64,000 nucleotides of DNA from an uncultured Glaciecola sp. (GTDB lineage Bacteria; Pseudomonadota; Gammaproteobacteria; Enterobacterales; Alteromonadaceae), in contig CANMCE010000005.1 of assembly GCA_947496235.1 (NCBI GenBank), positions 248,001 to 312,000 of the forward strand. Reading direction: 5' to 3'. Below, in pieces: positions 49,695-54,725 of the stretch. The first letter of the stretch is position 1; each line of letters begins with the position of its first letter. Under the pieces are notes generated by a model. The model saw nothing but the letters and a program-made list of their open reading frames with translations. It ran no database searches and was not told the origin of the DNA. Position numbers and translations under genes: made by a program.

Positions 49695-49717
49695 TACACC
49701 AAGCTATTTGCATATCG

Positions 49718-49746
49718 AAAGCCTCTTTAAGTAGAGGCTTTTTTTT
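49718..49746 (+). terminator. Rho-independent terminator after hflC
   Basis: AAGCCTCT - TTAAGT - AGAGGCTT followed by a run of eight T (to 49746). It closes the hfq-hflXKC transcript, and sits 26 bases beyond the end of the reverse-strand gene at 49772. Confidence 0.85.
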
Positions 49747-49771: not shown

Positions 49772-51910
49772 TTAATGGTTAGCTTGATATAATTTGTTAA
49801 AGTCAGCTACCGAGCAAGGCTCACCAAACAAAAAACCTTGTACTAGATGACAATCATGATTTATCAGATAACTCTCTTGCGCTGGGGTTTCTACTCCTTC
49901 GGCAATTACCTTCAGTTTAAGGTTATTTGCCATAGCAATTATGGCATTGACTATAGCTTGATCATCTTCACTATTGGCCAAATCAATAATAAAAGAGCGA
50001 TCAATTTTTAAGGTATCAATGGGTAGATGCTTCAAATAAGAAAGTGAACAATAGCCGGTACCAAAGTCATCAACTGAAATACTGATACCAGAGTCTTTAA
50101 GTTCCTTCAGGAACATTTTTACTTTGTTGTAATTATTAATTAATACACCTTCAGTTACTTCTATTTCGAGTAAATTGGGCGCAATATTCTTTTGCGTAAT
50201 GACGTTACGGAAAAAGCCTATAAGATTAAGATCATAGATTTGTTTAGGTGAAAAATTCAAAGAAATCGGCACTACAATTTGGGCTTTTTTCTGTTGAGTT
50301 AAAATATCGCATACTTGGGTAAAGACCCAGCGACCAATGGTGTTGATAAGCTCCGACTTTTCAGCGATGGGAATGAACTCTTCAGGCGATATAGTTTCGC
50401 CGTTTAAATGCCAACGTAATAAAGCCTCTGCTTTTATAATTTGCTTACTGTGCAGGTCATAGATGGGCTGCAAAAATAGTTCAAATTGATCTTTCTCGAT
50501 GGCATGTTTCAGCGCTTCTTCTAACAGAATACGTCGTCGAGATTTGCGTTTTAAGGCTTCGGTGTAAACTACCACATCATTACTCATTGACGCTTTTGCT
50601 GTAGACAGTGCTAGGTCAGCACAACCTAATAATTCTTCGCTATTGATAGCATTTTGTGGAAAGTGTGCGACACCAATTTTGACTGACAGTTCGCAACGGC
50701 TATTGCTTTTGGTATATAAGGGTTGGCGACAAATATTGCTTATATCGCGAGCGAGCATTTCAATATTGTCTTGATTTTCATTTAGAGTGTCAGGGTCACT
50801 CGCATTCTCTAGTCGACGCATGATCATAAATTCATCGGCGCCAACACGGGTCATAAAGTCGCCCTCTTGCAATATGGCAGAGATACGTTTTACCATTTGG
50901 ATCAAAAGGTCATCACCATCAAGATAACCATATAATTCATTGACGCTTCTAAAATTCACAATATCGATATTTAACAATGCCACAGCTTGTTTGTTATCTA
51001 CTAACTGATGCAACTCTTGCCAGAAGAATTGTCTGTTTGGTAAGCCCGTAAGCGGATCATGTAGCGCCAGTTCTTCGTTGGTCTGAAGAAGATATTTTAC
51101 TCGGGAGATGTCGCTAATTGTGAAAATCCAAAAAGTGCTAAACCCTATTCCATTTAGTACAGGATGAATATTTACCTTTAGCCATTTATGCGGCGTCGGC
51201 GGAGAATGCCAATACAGTTCTCCAGCCCAAGATGTAGTACCCGATAAAATATCTTCAGAAGCTCCGTATTGCCGATCTACTAGCCCCTTAATAGTGGCTA
51301 AGATATCAAACGTTTGGTTACTCGGGCTTTTTTCGAATATTTTCCATGCTGCTGGGTTAACTTCTTTAATTACGCCTACTGAATCTGTTATTAGAACACC
51401 TATGTCAGCTTTTCTTATCGCGTCAAGTATAGGCAATTCGGTTTTTGCTTCGGCAGATTCAATTAGAAGACTTCGAATTCGTTCACTTAAATAGTCATGG
51501 CGTTCAATGACTTCATCGTTGGAAATAAGTAATTCGCGCGCTATCTGTAACGTTTCTTTTTGTTGGTGATAAAGCTGAGCCTGATTCTTAATGATTAAAA
51601 ACTGGCCTTCGGTTACATGTGCGGCGATGGCCTCTAAATAGAGTTCACCATCAGCCGTAATTTCTGTCCAGATACCGCTTTCAATCTGCCCTTGTACTTG
51701 CTTGCGCCAATATTCATTGGCATCGAACATGAAGTCATCTAAAAATAATGATTGAGAATCAATGTTAACTTGTTGGCCAACAGCAAGATTTTTGAATAAT
51801 TGACTAACCCATTCATTTTGCGCATAAATCATCTCAAACAAATTATCTTTTAATCGTTTCAAGATAATGCAATCAGCAATTCCTAAAGATTTAATCAGCG
51901 ATAGATGCAT
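49772..51910 (-). CDS. PAS-GGDEF-EAL cyclic-di-GMP signalling protein
   Basis: This 712-residue soluble protein has no transmembrane helix. About 1-165 is an unrecognised N-terminal region rich in helices; 165-280 is PAS-like (IRKADIGVLITDSVGVIKEVNPAAWKIFE). About 285-440 is a GGDEF domain with a degenerate active site (RVGADEF instead of GGDEF). About 455-705 is an EAL domain with EALLRWH, NFSPKQIYD, LLEIEVTEGVL, SVDDFGTGYCSLSYL, LKIDRSFI and AEGVET, so phosphodiesterase activity is likely. The altered GGDEF may only bind GTP. It is the last gene of a four-gene reverse-strand operon with the GTPase and OmpA-type genes, starting 5 bases after the GTPase stop. Confidence 0.85.
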   Translation of the reverse strand: MHLSLIKSLGIADCIILKRLKDNLFEMIYAQNEWVSQLFKNLAVGQQVNIDSQSLFLDDFMFDANEYWRKQVQGQIESGIWTEITADGELYLEAIAAHVTEGQFLIIKNQAQLYHQQKETLQIARELLISNDEVIERHDYLSERIRSLLIESAEAKTELPILDAIRKADIGVLITDSVGVIKEVNPAAWKIFEKSPSNQTFDILATIKGLVDRQYGASEDILSGTTSWAGELYWHSPPTPHKWLKVNIHPVLNGIGFSTFWIFTISDISRVKYLLQTNEELALHDPLTGLPNRQFFWQELHQLVDNKQAVALLNIDIVNFRSVNELYGYLDGDDLLIQMVKRISAILQEGDFMTRVGADEFMIMRRLENASDPDTLNENQDNIEMLARDISNICRQPLYTKSNSRCELSVKIGVAHFPQNAINSEELLGCADLALSTAKASMSNDVVVYTEALKRKSRRRILLEEALKHAIEKDQFELFLQPIYDLHSKQIIKAEALLRWHLNGETISPEEFIPIAEKSELINTIGRWVFTQVCDILTQQKKAQIVVPISLNFSPKQIYDLNLIGFFRNVITQKNIAPNLLEIEVTEGVLINNYNKVKMFLKELKDSGISISVDDFGTGYCSLSYLKHLPIDTLKIDRSFIIDLANSEDDQAIVNAIIAMANNLKLKVIAEGVETPAQESYLINHDCHLVQGFLFGEPCSVADFNKLYQANH

Positions 51911-51914
51911 AAGA

Positions 51915-52409
51915 CTAGCTCTCTGTGATTAATTTGCCTATTTGCTCAAACATTTCTTCTACCGACTGTCCTGTTTTAGCACTGGTGGTAAATATACGGT
52001 CAAAACTTTGCGCGTGACTGTCTACGATGGATTGATCCCATTTTATTGATTGGGGTAAATCGTCTTTGTTAATAGCTAAAATACTTGGTACATCAAGATG
52101 TTTTTTCGTTAATGAATAGATTTCCATTAATTCTGAAACAGAGCTAAAGCGGGATTTATCAGCAACGAAAATGAGACCAGAAGCGCCACGCAGGTAGCGC
52201 GGATTAAAATGGCTATATTTATCTATGCCCTCTAAATCCCATATCATAAGTTGCACGGGGCGAATGCCATTTATTAGCAGTTTTTTGTCTATTTTTACGC
52301 CAATAGAGGTTAGGTATTTTTCTGAAAAAATACCCTCTACAAACTGCTTAATTAGACTGGTTTTGCCGACCCCTGTAGGTCCTAAAACACAGATTTTCTT
52401 CTGCAACAT
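51915..52409 (-). CDS. Ras-like small GTPase (prokaryotic MglA/Rup type)
   Basis: This 164-residue protein is a single small-GTPase domain: G1 GPTGVGKTSLIKQF, G2 region YLTSIGVKI (Thr), G3 WDLEGIDKY (DxxG), G4 AINKDDLP (NKxD), G5 TTSAKTGQ (SAK). The residue matching Ras Gln61 is Ile (DLEGI), so intrinsic hydrolysis should be slow and a partner GAP may be needed. Ras-superfamily GTPases in prokaryotes (MglA, Rup families) typically pair with roadblock-domain proteins, and the adjacent upstream protein appears to contain such a domain. ATG at 52409 begins MLQKKICVLGPTG; a longer open frame would overlap the upstream gene and is rejected. Confidence 0.85.
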   Translation of the reverse strand: MLQKKICVLGPTGVGKTSLIKQFVEGIFSEKYLTSIGVKIDKKLLINGIRPVQLMIWDLEGIDKYSHFNPRYLRGASGLIFVADKSRFSSVSELMEIYSLTKKHLDVPSILAINKDDLPQSIKWDQSIVDSHAQSFDRIFTTSAKTGQSVEEMFEQIGKLITES

Positions 52410-52431
52410 AATCGTCTGATTATCTCTTGAG

Positions 52432-54177
52432 TTAATAGAGTGCGGCGAAGATGACCTTCCTAGCATTTGAATTCTTTCCTGATGTTTCTATTTGGCTTGC
52501 TGCGACCGAAACAACTTCAGTTTCAAGTAAACCACGACGCAATAACTCTCTTCTGACTTTACTTGCCCGTTCAATACTTAGCACTTCATTTCTTGACTGT
52601 GCGCCAAGTGTATCGCTAGCCCCAATGATTAGCAATGTCGGCGTAATTTGAATATTTTCAGCCAGCTGCTTCAATCGCTGAAAAGTACTCACCACTTCAT
52701 CTAGTTTTGATTGAGCTTGTGGATGCATAGTACTCTGGTTTACGTCAAATAGCACCTGAATACTGGCCAGTTGCGCACTTAACTGGCCTATCATATTTCT
52801 AATCATAGGTGCAGTAGATTCATTACTTGAATTAAGCCTGTCTTGTTTTAGCGTGGGCATGCCAATACGATCAAGGTCAATACCTGGAATGGCTGATAAT
52901 GATTTCTCTAAAGCAATCACATCAGAATATTGTGCGCTTTGTAAAGCTTCAATTTTTCCTTCATTGTAGTTAAATCGAGGATCTTCTTTAATTAACGTTT
53001 GAATTTTATTGTCAATAACCTCTGGAGCATCAGAAATGAAAGAAATTTCATTTACCTGAATCCAATCAGCTGGGAGGTTAAGAGACTCCAGCCATTGGCT
53101 CACAGAAATGGCAGACTTATCCCGTAGTAAGGTAAGCTCTATGTCTTGCAATCCTCGCACACTCGCACTTGTTACCACAATACCATTATTAGTGTTTGAT
53201 TCTCTAAGAGACGATGCAACATTCGAAGTTTGCCAACTTAAATAAGCATACCAGCCTGCCAGTCCAGCTAGAATTCCGATAAATACCCAAGCAAACCAGG
53301 CTTTTTTTGGGGGGGTACTTTTTTCTTCAAACAACAAACATTCTTCGAGAATTGGCGTGGTTTCGGCGAAGGGCGTTTTGTCACCATCAAAATTCTGAAT
53401 TTCCTTAATATAGAGTTTGTGGATGTACTCTAAGGTTGATTGCAATTTTGCTTTTGCAGAAGGAGAGATTGAACCTGTTACCGATGCAACTAATGCTACT
53501 GACGGGCCTTGCTTAATAAATAAGGTAAAATCATCGGTTTTAATTTCGTCTAATTGCTGATCGTGTTGCAGTTTGGATGAAAATGAATCCGCGACAAAAT
53601 CATTTATTGCGGTGAGCATGGCGGAAACCAATTCAGAATTTTCATCAACTTCATTGGTTAGATTCACCGCATTTAGTAAAGCACCAGTTTCCTTGTGAAT
53701 TAACAGCACATTGTGGATTTGAAACACATAGGTTTGAGATGCAACGTAAGTAGCGTAGGGCATTCCTGCTCGCCATGCGCGATAACGCCAGAAAATGGAC
53801 TCCATAGAAACTGATTTTTCGATAATTTCATTAGTCTTCTCAATAAAATCTCTTAAGCTAGCGGCTACATATTTTCTGACCAAGTCACCAACTAACGGAA
53901 AAATGTAATTCAACATTTCACCACGTTGTCGGGTGAATGAATGCTGCATACTTTCTTCAACAACTGGTATTAAAACCTTAGACACACTCTGATCGGTTAA
54001 TTCTCGATCTCGGATCGCTTCGGTCACTACCTCTTTGACCATTTCACGAGTGTTTTCCTGCAGTTCTGCTTGATGCTCTGTCAATGGTTGATGTAGCAAC
54101 AGATAACGAAGTTTTTCGAGATCCTTCTCTGCCTGTTGTTTTAATTCTTCGGGGTCGTTATCCACTAGTTTTGACAT
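52432..54177 (-). CDS. membrane protein with predicted roadblock-like cytoplasmic region, single TM helix and OmpA-like peptidoglycan-binding domain
   Basis: This 581-residue protein has no signal peptide. Residues 1-135 are helical and charged; about 140-260 resembles a roadblock/longin-like fold (VFQIHNVLLIHKETGALLNAV, then LVSAMLTAINDFVADSF, then FIKQGPSVALVASVTG). A transmembrane helix (293-315, AWFAWVFIGILAGLAGWYAY) follows, then a periplasmic region with possible BON-like parts (about 332-445). An OmpA/MotB-like domain (about 472-560: IQVLFDVNQST, GASDTLGAQSRNEVLSIERA) keeps the Asp and Arg that bind diaminopimelate. Cytoplasm to wall topology is inferred. It sits upstream of a Ras-like GTPase (22-base gap), so the roadblock-like region is a candidate GTPase partner. 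Confidence 0.72.
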   Translation of the reverse strand: MSKLVDNDPEELKQQAEKDLEKLRYLLLHQPLTEHQAELQENTREMVKEVVTEAIRDRELTDQSVSKVLIPVVEESMQHSFTRQRGEMLNYIFPLVGDLVRKYVAASLRDFIEKTNEIIEKSVSMESIFWRYRAWRAGMPYATYVASQTYVFQIHNVLLIHKETGALLNAVNLTNEVDENSELVSAMLTAINDFVADSFSSKLQHDQQLDEIKTDDFTLFIKQGPSVALVASVTGSISPSAKAKLQSTLEYIHKLYIKEIQNFDGDKTPFAETTPILEECLLFEEKSTPPKKAWFAWVFIGILAGLAGWYAYLSWQTSNVASSLRESNTNNGIVVTSASVRGLQDIELTLLRDKSAISVSQWLESLNLPADWIQVNEISFISDAPEVIDNKIQTLIKEDPRFNYNEGKIEALQSAQYSDVIALEKSLSAIPGIDLDRIGMPTLKQDRLNSSNESTAPMIRNMIGQLSAQLASIQVLFDVNQSTMHPQAQSKLDEVVSTFQRLKQLAENIQITPTLLIIGASDTLGAQSRNEVLSIERASKVRRELLRRGLLETEVVSVAASQIETSGKNSNARKVIFAALY

Positions 54178-54200
54178 AACTATAAGTCAGGTGATTTTTA

Positions 54201-54725
54201 TCAATCACCCGCCTCTAGATTATTAGCAACATTTGCCAATAATTGGGCCAGCGTTTTACGATCGGTTTTACTGGTGGTTAGCTCGTTGGTAACGGAGTCT
54301 AACTTCGCCATTAAGCGTTCTACCGCGTCTTTTAGCTCTCCTTGCAGTTGATTAACCTCTTCATCCAAGCGTTTATGCAATTGTTGAGCATCGTCTTGGG
54401 CAGCGTTTTCGGCCATTTCCAATTGGCTACTTAATGAATTTGTGGTGTCTAGGAATGCCTGTTTGTTACTCTCTTGAATTTCGTTAGATTGTGAAAGTTT
54501 AAGTAATAAATCCGCTTGATTGTCAGCCATATTCTGCTGGACCAGGCTGAATTGCTCCGAAAAATGAGTCTGTAACTTAGACATTTCATCGGTCAAACGT
54601 TGATTTAATTGCTCAATCTTAGCGTCTAGTTCTTGTTTGGCCGCACCAAAAACAATTAATCTAAGTTGTTCTAGATCGTTCAAGGGGTCATTTGACGCGT
54701 TATCAGGAATCACTTTTGTTGCCAT
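54201..54725 (-). CDS. coiled-coil protein of the GTPase/OmpA operon
   Basis: This 174-residue soluble protein is almost wholly helical coiled coil, with heptad-like repeats from about residue 30 to 160 (for example QLHKRLDEEVNQLQGELKDAVERLM). The N-terminal stretch NDLEQLRLIVFGAAKQELDAKI echoes the start of the adjacent OmpA-type protein (KDLEKLRYLLLHQPL). It probably forms a rod or adaptor linking to that membrane protein. No enzyme motif is visible. It is the first gene of the operon, with AAGGGA 9 nt upstream, and is 23 bases from the next gene. Confidence 0.7.
   Translation of the reverse strand: MATKVIPDNASNDPLNDLEQLRLIVFGAAKQELDAKIEQLNQRLTDEMSKLQTHFSEQFSLVQQNMADNQADLLLKLSQSNEIQESNKQAFLDTTNSLSSQLEMAENAAQDDAQQLHKRLDEEVNQLQGELKDAVERLMAKLDSVTNELTTSKTDRKTLAQLLANVANNLEAGD

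Follow-up and report, generated by a model that had tools for sequence, protein, structure and literature searches.

A Group 1 Rup GTPase operon with a predicted longin-fold membrane protein in an uncultured Glaciecola sp.

A 64,000-nucleotide stretch of an uncultured Glaciecola sp. genome (contig CANMCE010000005.1, positions 248,001 to 312,000; hereafter the window) harbors an operon of four genes, encoding a coiled-coil protein, a membrane protein with an OmpA-like end, a Rab/Ras-like small GTPase and an output protein with PAS, GGDEF and EAL domains (Table 1). On its gene set and sequence motifs, the operon is assigned to the Group 1 Rup neighborhood, which Wuichet & Søgaard-Andersen 2014 (PMC4316618) described from genomes. 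The cytoplasmic domain of the membrane protein is predicted to adopt a longin fold, and this prediction for a domain previously termed unknown is one addition of the present analysis.

Assignment to the Group 1 Rup neighborhood

The neighborhood described in PMC4316618 consists of a coiled-coil protein, a protein in which an unknown domain is followed by a transmembrane (TM) segment and an OmpA domain, the Rup GTPase and an output protein. Its GTPases lack the glutamine of the G3 motif, while the output N-terminus carries an invariant glutamine. The window holds the same four genes, with nothing different in kind: its GTPase is of the Ras/Rab type by Pfam and PDB comparison, has isoleucine (I62) at the position of the G3 glutamine and is accompanied by the coiled coil, the unknown domain-TM-OmpA protein and the output, in which Q122 is likened to the published glutamine by its description. 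The first-pass annotation of the window knew of no described system with such a set, a view which this match overturns. PMC4316618 suggests that the Group 1 gene products form a signaling complex and states that, as of 2014, no Rup had been characterized experimentally, bar a Nostoc member shown to be transcribed. Searches of the titles and abstract beginnings of open-licence papers found neither later literature on Rup, including experimental tests of the gene set, nor a description of cyclase-linked Rup, and no paper on bacterial longin-OmpA-GTPase proteins was found in the open-licence literature.

Relatives were collected by searching genome contigs with the GTPase only; 151 were found and the best 80 loci were kept. 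A script then asked whether a coiled-coil-sized open reading frame (ORF) is followed on one strand by the membrane-protein gene, the GTPase gene and a gene with the output N-terminal domain, as in the window, and it found this complete order in 67/80 loci. A chance or recent cluster is ruled out by this result, and the four-gene order for which the first-pass annotation had proposed a neighborhood survey is well conserved. Gene order, nucleotide-binding motifs, the missing glutamine of the GTPase, the invariant glutamine of its partner and the EAL motifs can all be read directly from the sequences.

The GTPase and its output proteins

The window GTPase matches the Pfam Ras family (E 3.7e-24), and its best PDB relatives shown are Rab35, Sec4 and Rab32. 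Its G1, G4 and G5 motifs are intact, switch I reads IGVKIDKK, and the G3 motif, WDLEGID, lacks glutamine. Among 99 aligned GTPases, the G1, G4 and G5 residues (P-loop lysine, NKxD and SAK) are kept in nearly all rows and switch I is identical in 79. The catalytic glutamine (Ras position 61) is present in 0/98 GTPases with a residue at this position, which is most often I (39), E (27), V (12) or N (8), and 88/98 have S, T or F at the equivalent of Ras position 12.

The output protein begins with a domain (residues 14-109) predicted to be PAS-like from its order of helices and strands, followed by a helix carrying Q122 and R125, a second PAS domain, a GGDEF domain (Pfam E-value 2.2e-28) and an EAL domain (3.9e-72). 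The Pfam match to PAS is weak (0.087, below the cut-off), the second PAS domain is clear by structure search, and a PDB profile search with the unknown output domain gave no match at E 1. The motifs EAL, DDFG, KID and EGVE are all present in the window output, which carries GADEF in place of the diguanylate cyclase signature GGDEF/GGEEF. The intact EAL motifs and the degenerate GGDEF motif make hydrolysis of cyclic di-GMP (c-di-GMP) by a phosphodiesterase the most likely activity of the output. EAL motifs are likewise intact in 59/59 outputs examined, and GGDEF is intact in 14. Three PilZ domain matches in two ORFs of the host genome could read c-di-GMP.

Residues 1-140 of the output, comprising the first domain and the helix, recur in outputs of the histidine-kinase and HD-GYP types from other phyla. 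The glutamine early in the helix (Q122 in the window) is kept in 89/89 outputs with a residue at this position (90 rows), and it is the only invariant helix residue in a 34-row alignment that has no cyclase outputs. R125 is found in 44/46 outputs of the first set with a residue at its position and in 74/89 once cyclase outputs are included; only the glutamine is therefore general, and a universal dual glutamine/arginine finger was rejected. The outputs differ by lineage, namely GGDEF-EAL, histidine kinase, HD-GYP and class III cyclase. The latter two types go beyond the GGDEF/EAL fusions and histidine kinases named as typical in PMC4316618, whose supplementary tables may list others. A GTPase tree of 53 rows was examined for recurrent exchange of outputs. 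With output labels that we assigned partly by similarity rather than Pfam scan, there are twelve label changes where the least possible is five. Well-supported branches force only one to three changes per label, so that cyclase and kinase outputs may each have a single origin.

In other families of Pseudomonadota (L182-L185, L187-L189, L191-L194), the same GTPase type and longin-OmpA protein are found, with class III cyclases in 6/11 loci scanned, a Ras-cyclase pairing reminiscent of yeast. Two outputs, a class III cyclase and a hybrid histidine kinase, follow the GTPase in a row in a Desulfobacterales locus (L113:6596-9588).

The predicted longin domain and a possible signaling mechanism

The membrane protein comprises N-terminal helices, the predicted longin domain (residues ~150-286), its one hydrophobic segment (TM, residues 295-313), a predicted periplasmic linker and an OmpA-like domain (residues 476-562; Pfam OmpA E 1.3e-8). 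The predicted structure of the cytoplasmic domain has the longin arrangement bbabbbaa with two C-terminal helices, and a structure search with the model returned TRAPP, AP, Mon1-Ccz1 and Ragulator as best matches. Several of the top ones are, by their entry titles, Rab exchange-factor subunits. With a longin fold predicted, the first-pass reading of this region as roadblock-like holds at the superfamily level, and longin structures are matched better than roadblock ones. In an hhalign comparison of an alignment of 25 of 29 rows with Robl_LC7, the local score was 20.2 (E 0.015, 73 columns), and 0/50 column shuffles scored as high (maximum 18.6).

We favor, tentatively and with slightly less than even confidence, a mechanism in which the state of the GTPase is set by the longin membrane protein and, once in its GTP form, the GTPase engages the output and receives from it the missing glutamine. 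The periplasmic OmpA-like domain would hold the membrane protein in the wall, with the longin domain facing the cytoplasm, where the Rab-like GTPase would dock on it and probably exchange its nucleotide there, perhaps with help from the coiled-coil protein. The exchange role is suggested because the best structure matches are subunits of eukaryotic exchange factors. The GTP-loaded GTPase would bind the output at its first domain and the helix that follows, and would alter the output's c-di-GMP phosphodiesterase activity, in either direction, while the invariant glutamine of the output would replace that missing from the GTPase, acting as a GTPase-activating protein (GAP) finger to switch it off. 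As a possible but doubtful extension, the operon may represent a bacterial analogue of receptor, G protein and effector, in which the receptor would be a transmembrane longin exchange factor anchored in the wall, the G protein would be Rab-like, and the effector, which varies between lineages, would double as GAP.

Several points weigh against this mechanism. The structure predictions covered single chains only, and all contacts between the operon proteins are those that we infer. Sequence support for the superfamily is weak: neither Longin nor Robl_LC7 is among the 25 listed of 41 Pfam families (55 members), a PDB profile search with the membrane-protein domain drew no match at E 1, the hhalign E-value was 0.015 in local mode, and in global mode the domain scored 8.4 versus 9.0 for an unrelated GTPase profile. 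Block values of the predicted local distance difference test (pLDDT) for the membrane-protein model are 55-60 around residues 31-40 and 81-120, in its N-terminal half. Longins also occur in SNAREs and adaptors, and the fold is therefore no proof of exchange activity; MglB, a related roadblock protein, acts as a GAP. The PAS-like call for output residues 14-109 rests on helix and strand order, the structure search having covered the second PAS domain only. In many cyclase outputs the glutamine lies within a QQ or QQQ run, which leaves the alignment free by one to two residues. The output N-terminal domain is missing beside the GTPase in 5/80 loci (L053, L102, L104, L106 and L114), of which the stretches of L106 and L114 stop within 1.1 kb, and no membrane protein was found in four (L104, L110, L111 and L116).

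Alternatively, the longin/roadblock domain could play the GAP role that MglB has towards MglA, or serve simply as a tether, with the output an effector only and its glutamine a structural residue of a signaling helix. We consider this unlikely, given that longin matches exceed roadblock matches, that several best matches are Rab exchange-factor subunits (by entry titles, and PMC6864590 for Fuzzy-Inturned), that Q122 is the sole invariant residue of its helix in the 34 rows and that no GTPase examined has a glutamine of its own. Quite improbable is a polarity device, as read in the first-pass annotation, in which the GTPase marks cell poles, the protein bound to the wall determines where a motility or envelope machine sits, and c-di-GMP is a side input. 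MglA is described as governing polarity and motility in Myxococcus, and the OmpA-like end could fix position, but the best PDB relatives shown of the window GTPase are Rabs, the four conserved genes include no motility gene, other lineages have kinases, HD-GYP proteins or cyclases as outputs, and no Robl_LC7 partner was matched in the host genome at E 0.001 (the same search gave matches in 3/14 control genomes). The first-pass interpretation as a whole finds partial support. That the GTPase is always GTP-bound and forms a structural part of the output, with a switch that is not cycled, would fit the glutamine in 0/98 GTPases and the S, T or F at Ras position 12 in 88/98, but is very improbable with the P-loop lysine, NKxD and SAK residues kept in nearly all rows and the partner glutamine in 89/89 outputs.

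The MglA-MglB system of Myxococcus and the actinobacterial conservons likewise combine a small GTPase, a roadblock-superfamily protein and signaling partners. In contrast to these, the window has a Rab/Rup-type GTPase and a longin-type domain joined to TM and OmpA-like domains; an MglA-type system was rejected on the Rab affinity of the GTPase and the lack of a Robl_LC7 match in the host genome. Unlike the eukaryotic longin Rab exchange factors (TRAPP, Mon1-Ccz1 and Fuzzy-Inturned), the window protein is bacterial, has a single TM segment and gives no sequence-level match to them, its exchange role being a putative one. The eukaryotic Ras-superfamily GTPases have been proposed to descend from ancestral Rup GTPases (PMC4316618), and longins to derive from MglB-like domains of prokaryotes (PMC3521125). 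An operon pairing a Rab-like GTPase with a predicted longin membrane protein offers a concrete test of the age of this pairing, in bacteria that are partly in culture, and would show one small G protein controlling c-di-GMP, cyclase or kinase outputs. Should the receptor-G protein-effector reading be true, a relative of the longin-Rab pair known from eukaryotic membrane traffic would still exist in bacteria, within a conserved operon.

Distribution and genomic context

By the phylum labels of the GTPase rows, the GTPase is found in 11 phyla, and the complete same-strand set in six, namely Pseudomonadota, Myxococcota, Chloroflexota, Thermodesulfobacteriota, Acidobacteriota and Rhodothermota, the records outside Pseudomonadota being mostly metagenome bins. 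The membrane protein is matched at E < 1e-50 in 12/295 genomes of the host's order, and a profile of its cytoplasmic part matches 51/398 genomes of the phylum. The operon is patchy in the host's family, as 10/24 genomes listed have a membrane-protein match and one genome of the same genus has none. The GTPase adjoins the membrane gene in 17/20 regions fetched from the 51 genomes by script, and in L197 by reading; L195 has no GTPase beside the membrane gene, while the contig of L198 ends at that point. Four loci of a distant clade (L190, L199, L200 and L201) have adjoining membrane protein and GTPase genes and a WDTDG G3 motif, with no match to the output N-terminal domain nearby.

Among the 80 loci, the departures from the complete order are four that lack the output domain only (L053, L102, L106 and L114), five with output and membrane protein in an order that is not simple (L083, L098, L100, L103 and L112), three with an output in which no membrane protein was found (L110, L111 and L116), and L104, with neither and only a sub-threshold cyclase match. 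L100, L103 and L112 have a divergent arrangement, and we read the ORF tables as pointing to an overlap from an early start codon in L098 and a split membrane gene in L083. The contig stretches of L106, L111, L114, L116 and L118 start or end near the GTPase. In L053, from Alteromonas profundi, the coiled coil, membrane protein and GTPase are kept with no GGDEF-EAL gene alongside. The membrane-protein gene is broken into several ORFs beside an intact GTPase in L083, L062 and L066, which suggests decay or sequencing errors.

The coiled-coil slot is filled by an ORF of 90-320 amino acids (aa) in 71/80 loci, of which 70 match the window coiled coil by phmmer; in the complete loci, the first ORF does so in 66/67 (E <= 1e-3). 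As coiled coils match easily, this support is weak for six rows below 25 bits. An LRLIVFG-like N-terminal motif is present in 68/71 slots. An LRxLLxG-type helix opens both the coiled-coil and the membrane proteins in the loci printed, and may be a shared oligomerization motif or reflect an old duplication.

All four same-strand ORFs of the first-pass annotation were found in the window, with the Ras, OmpA, GGDEF and EAL domains confirmed by Pfam. The gaps, from coiled coil to output, are 23, 22 and 4 bases, the last having been given as 5. The GTPase start is the ATG common to its homologues; an upstream ATG would give 183 aa.

Table 1. Coordinates of the operon and its features in the window
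Feature	Position	Strand	Basis
Operon, four genes	49772-54725	-	ORF listing
Coiled-coil protein, 174 aa, N-terminal LRLIVFG motif	54201..54725	-	ORF, phmmer, slot survey
Membrane protein, 581 aa	52432..54177	-	ORF, Pfam, structure prediction
DNA of predicted longin domain, residues about 150-286	53320..53730	-	Predicted structure
Rup (Rab/Ras-like) small GTPase, 164 aa	51915..52409	-	Pfam, PDB matches, motifs
Output protein, 712 aa, PAS-PAS-GGDEF-EAL	49772..51910	-	Pfam, structure search, alignments
Output N-terminal domain and helix, residues 1-140	51491..51910	-	Alignments with other outputs

A promoter and terminator scan was overall near chance, with 12 promoter-like sites against 14.9 expected and 7 terminator-like sites against 4.2 expected (standard deviation 2.2); it includes a hairpin followed by a T run at 49717-49742. 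In the host genome of 4.4 Mb, the operon is flanked by hflC and a divergent transporter gene, both named from their translations.
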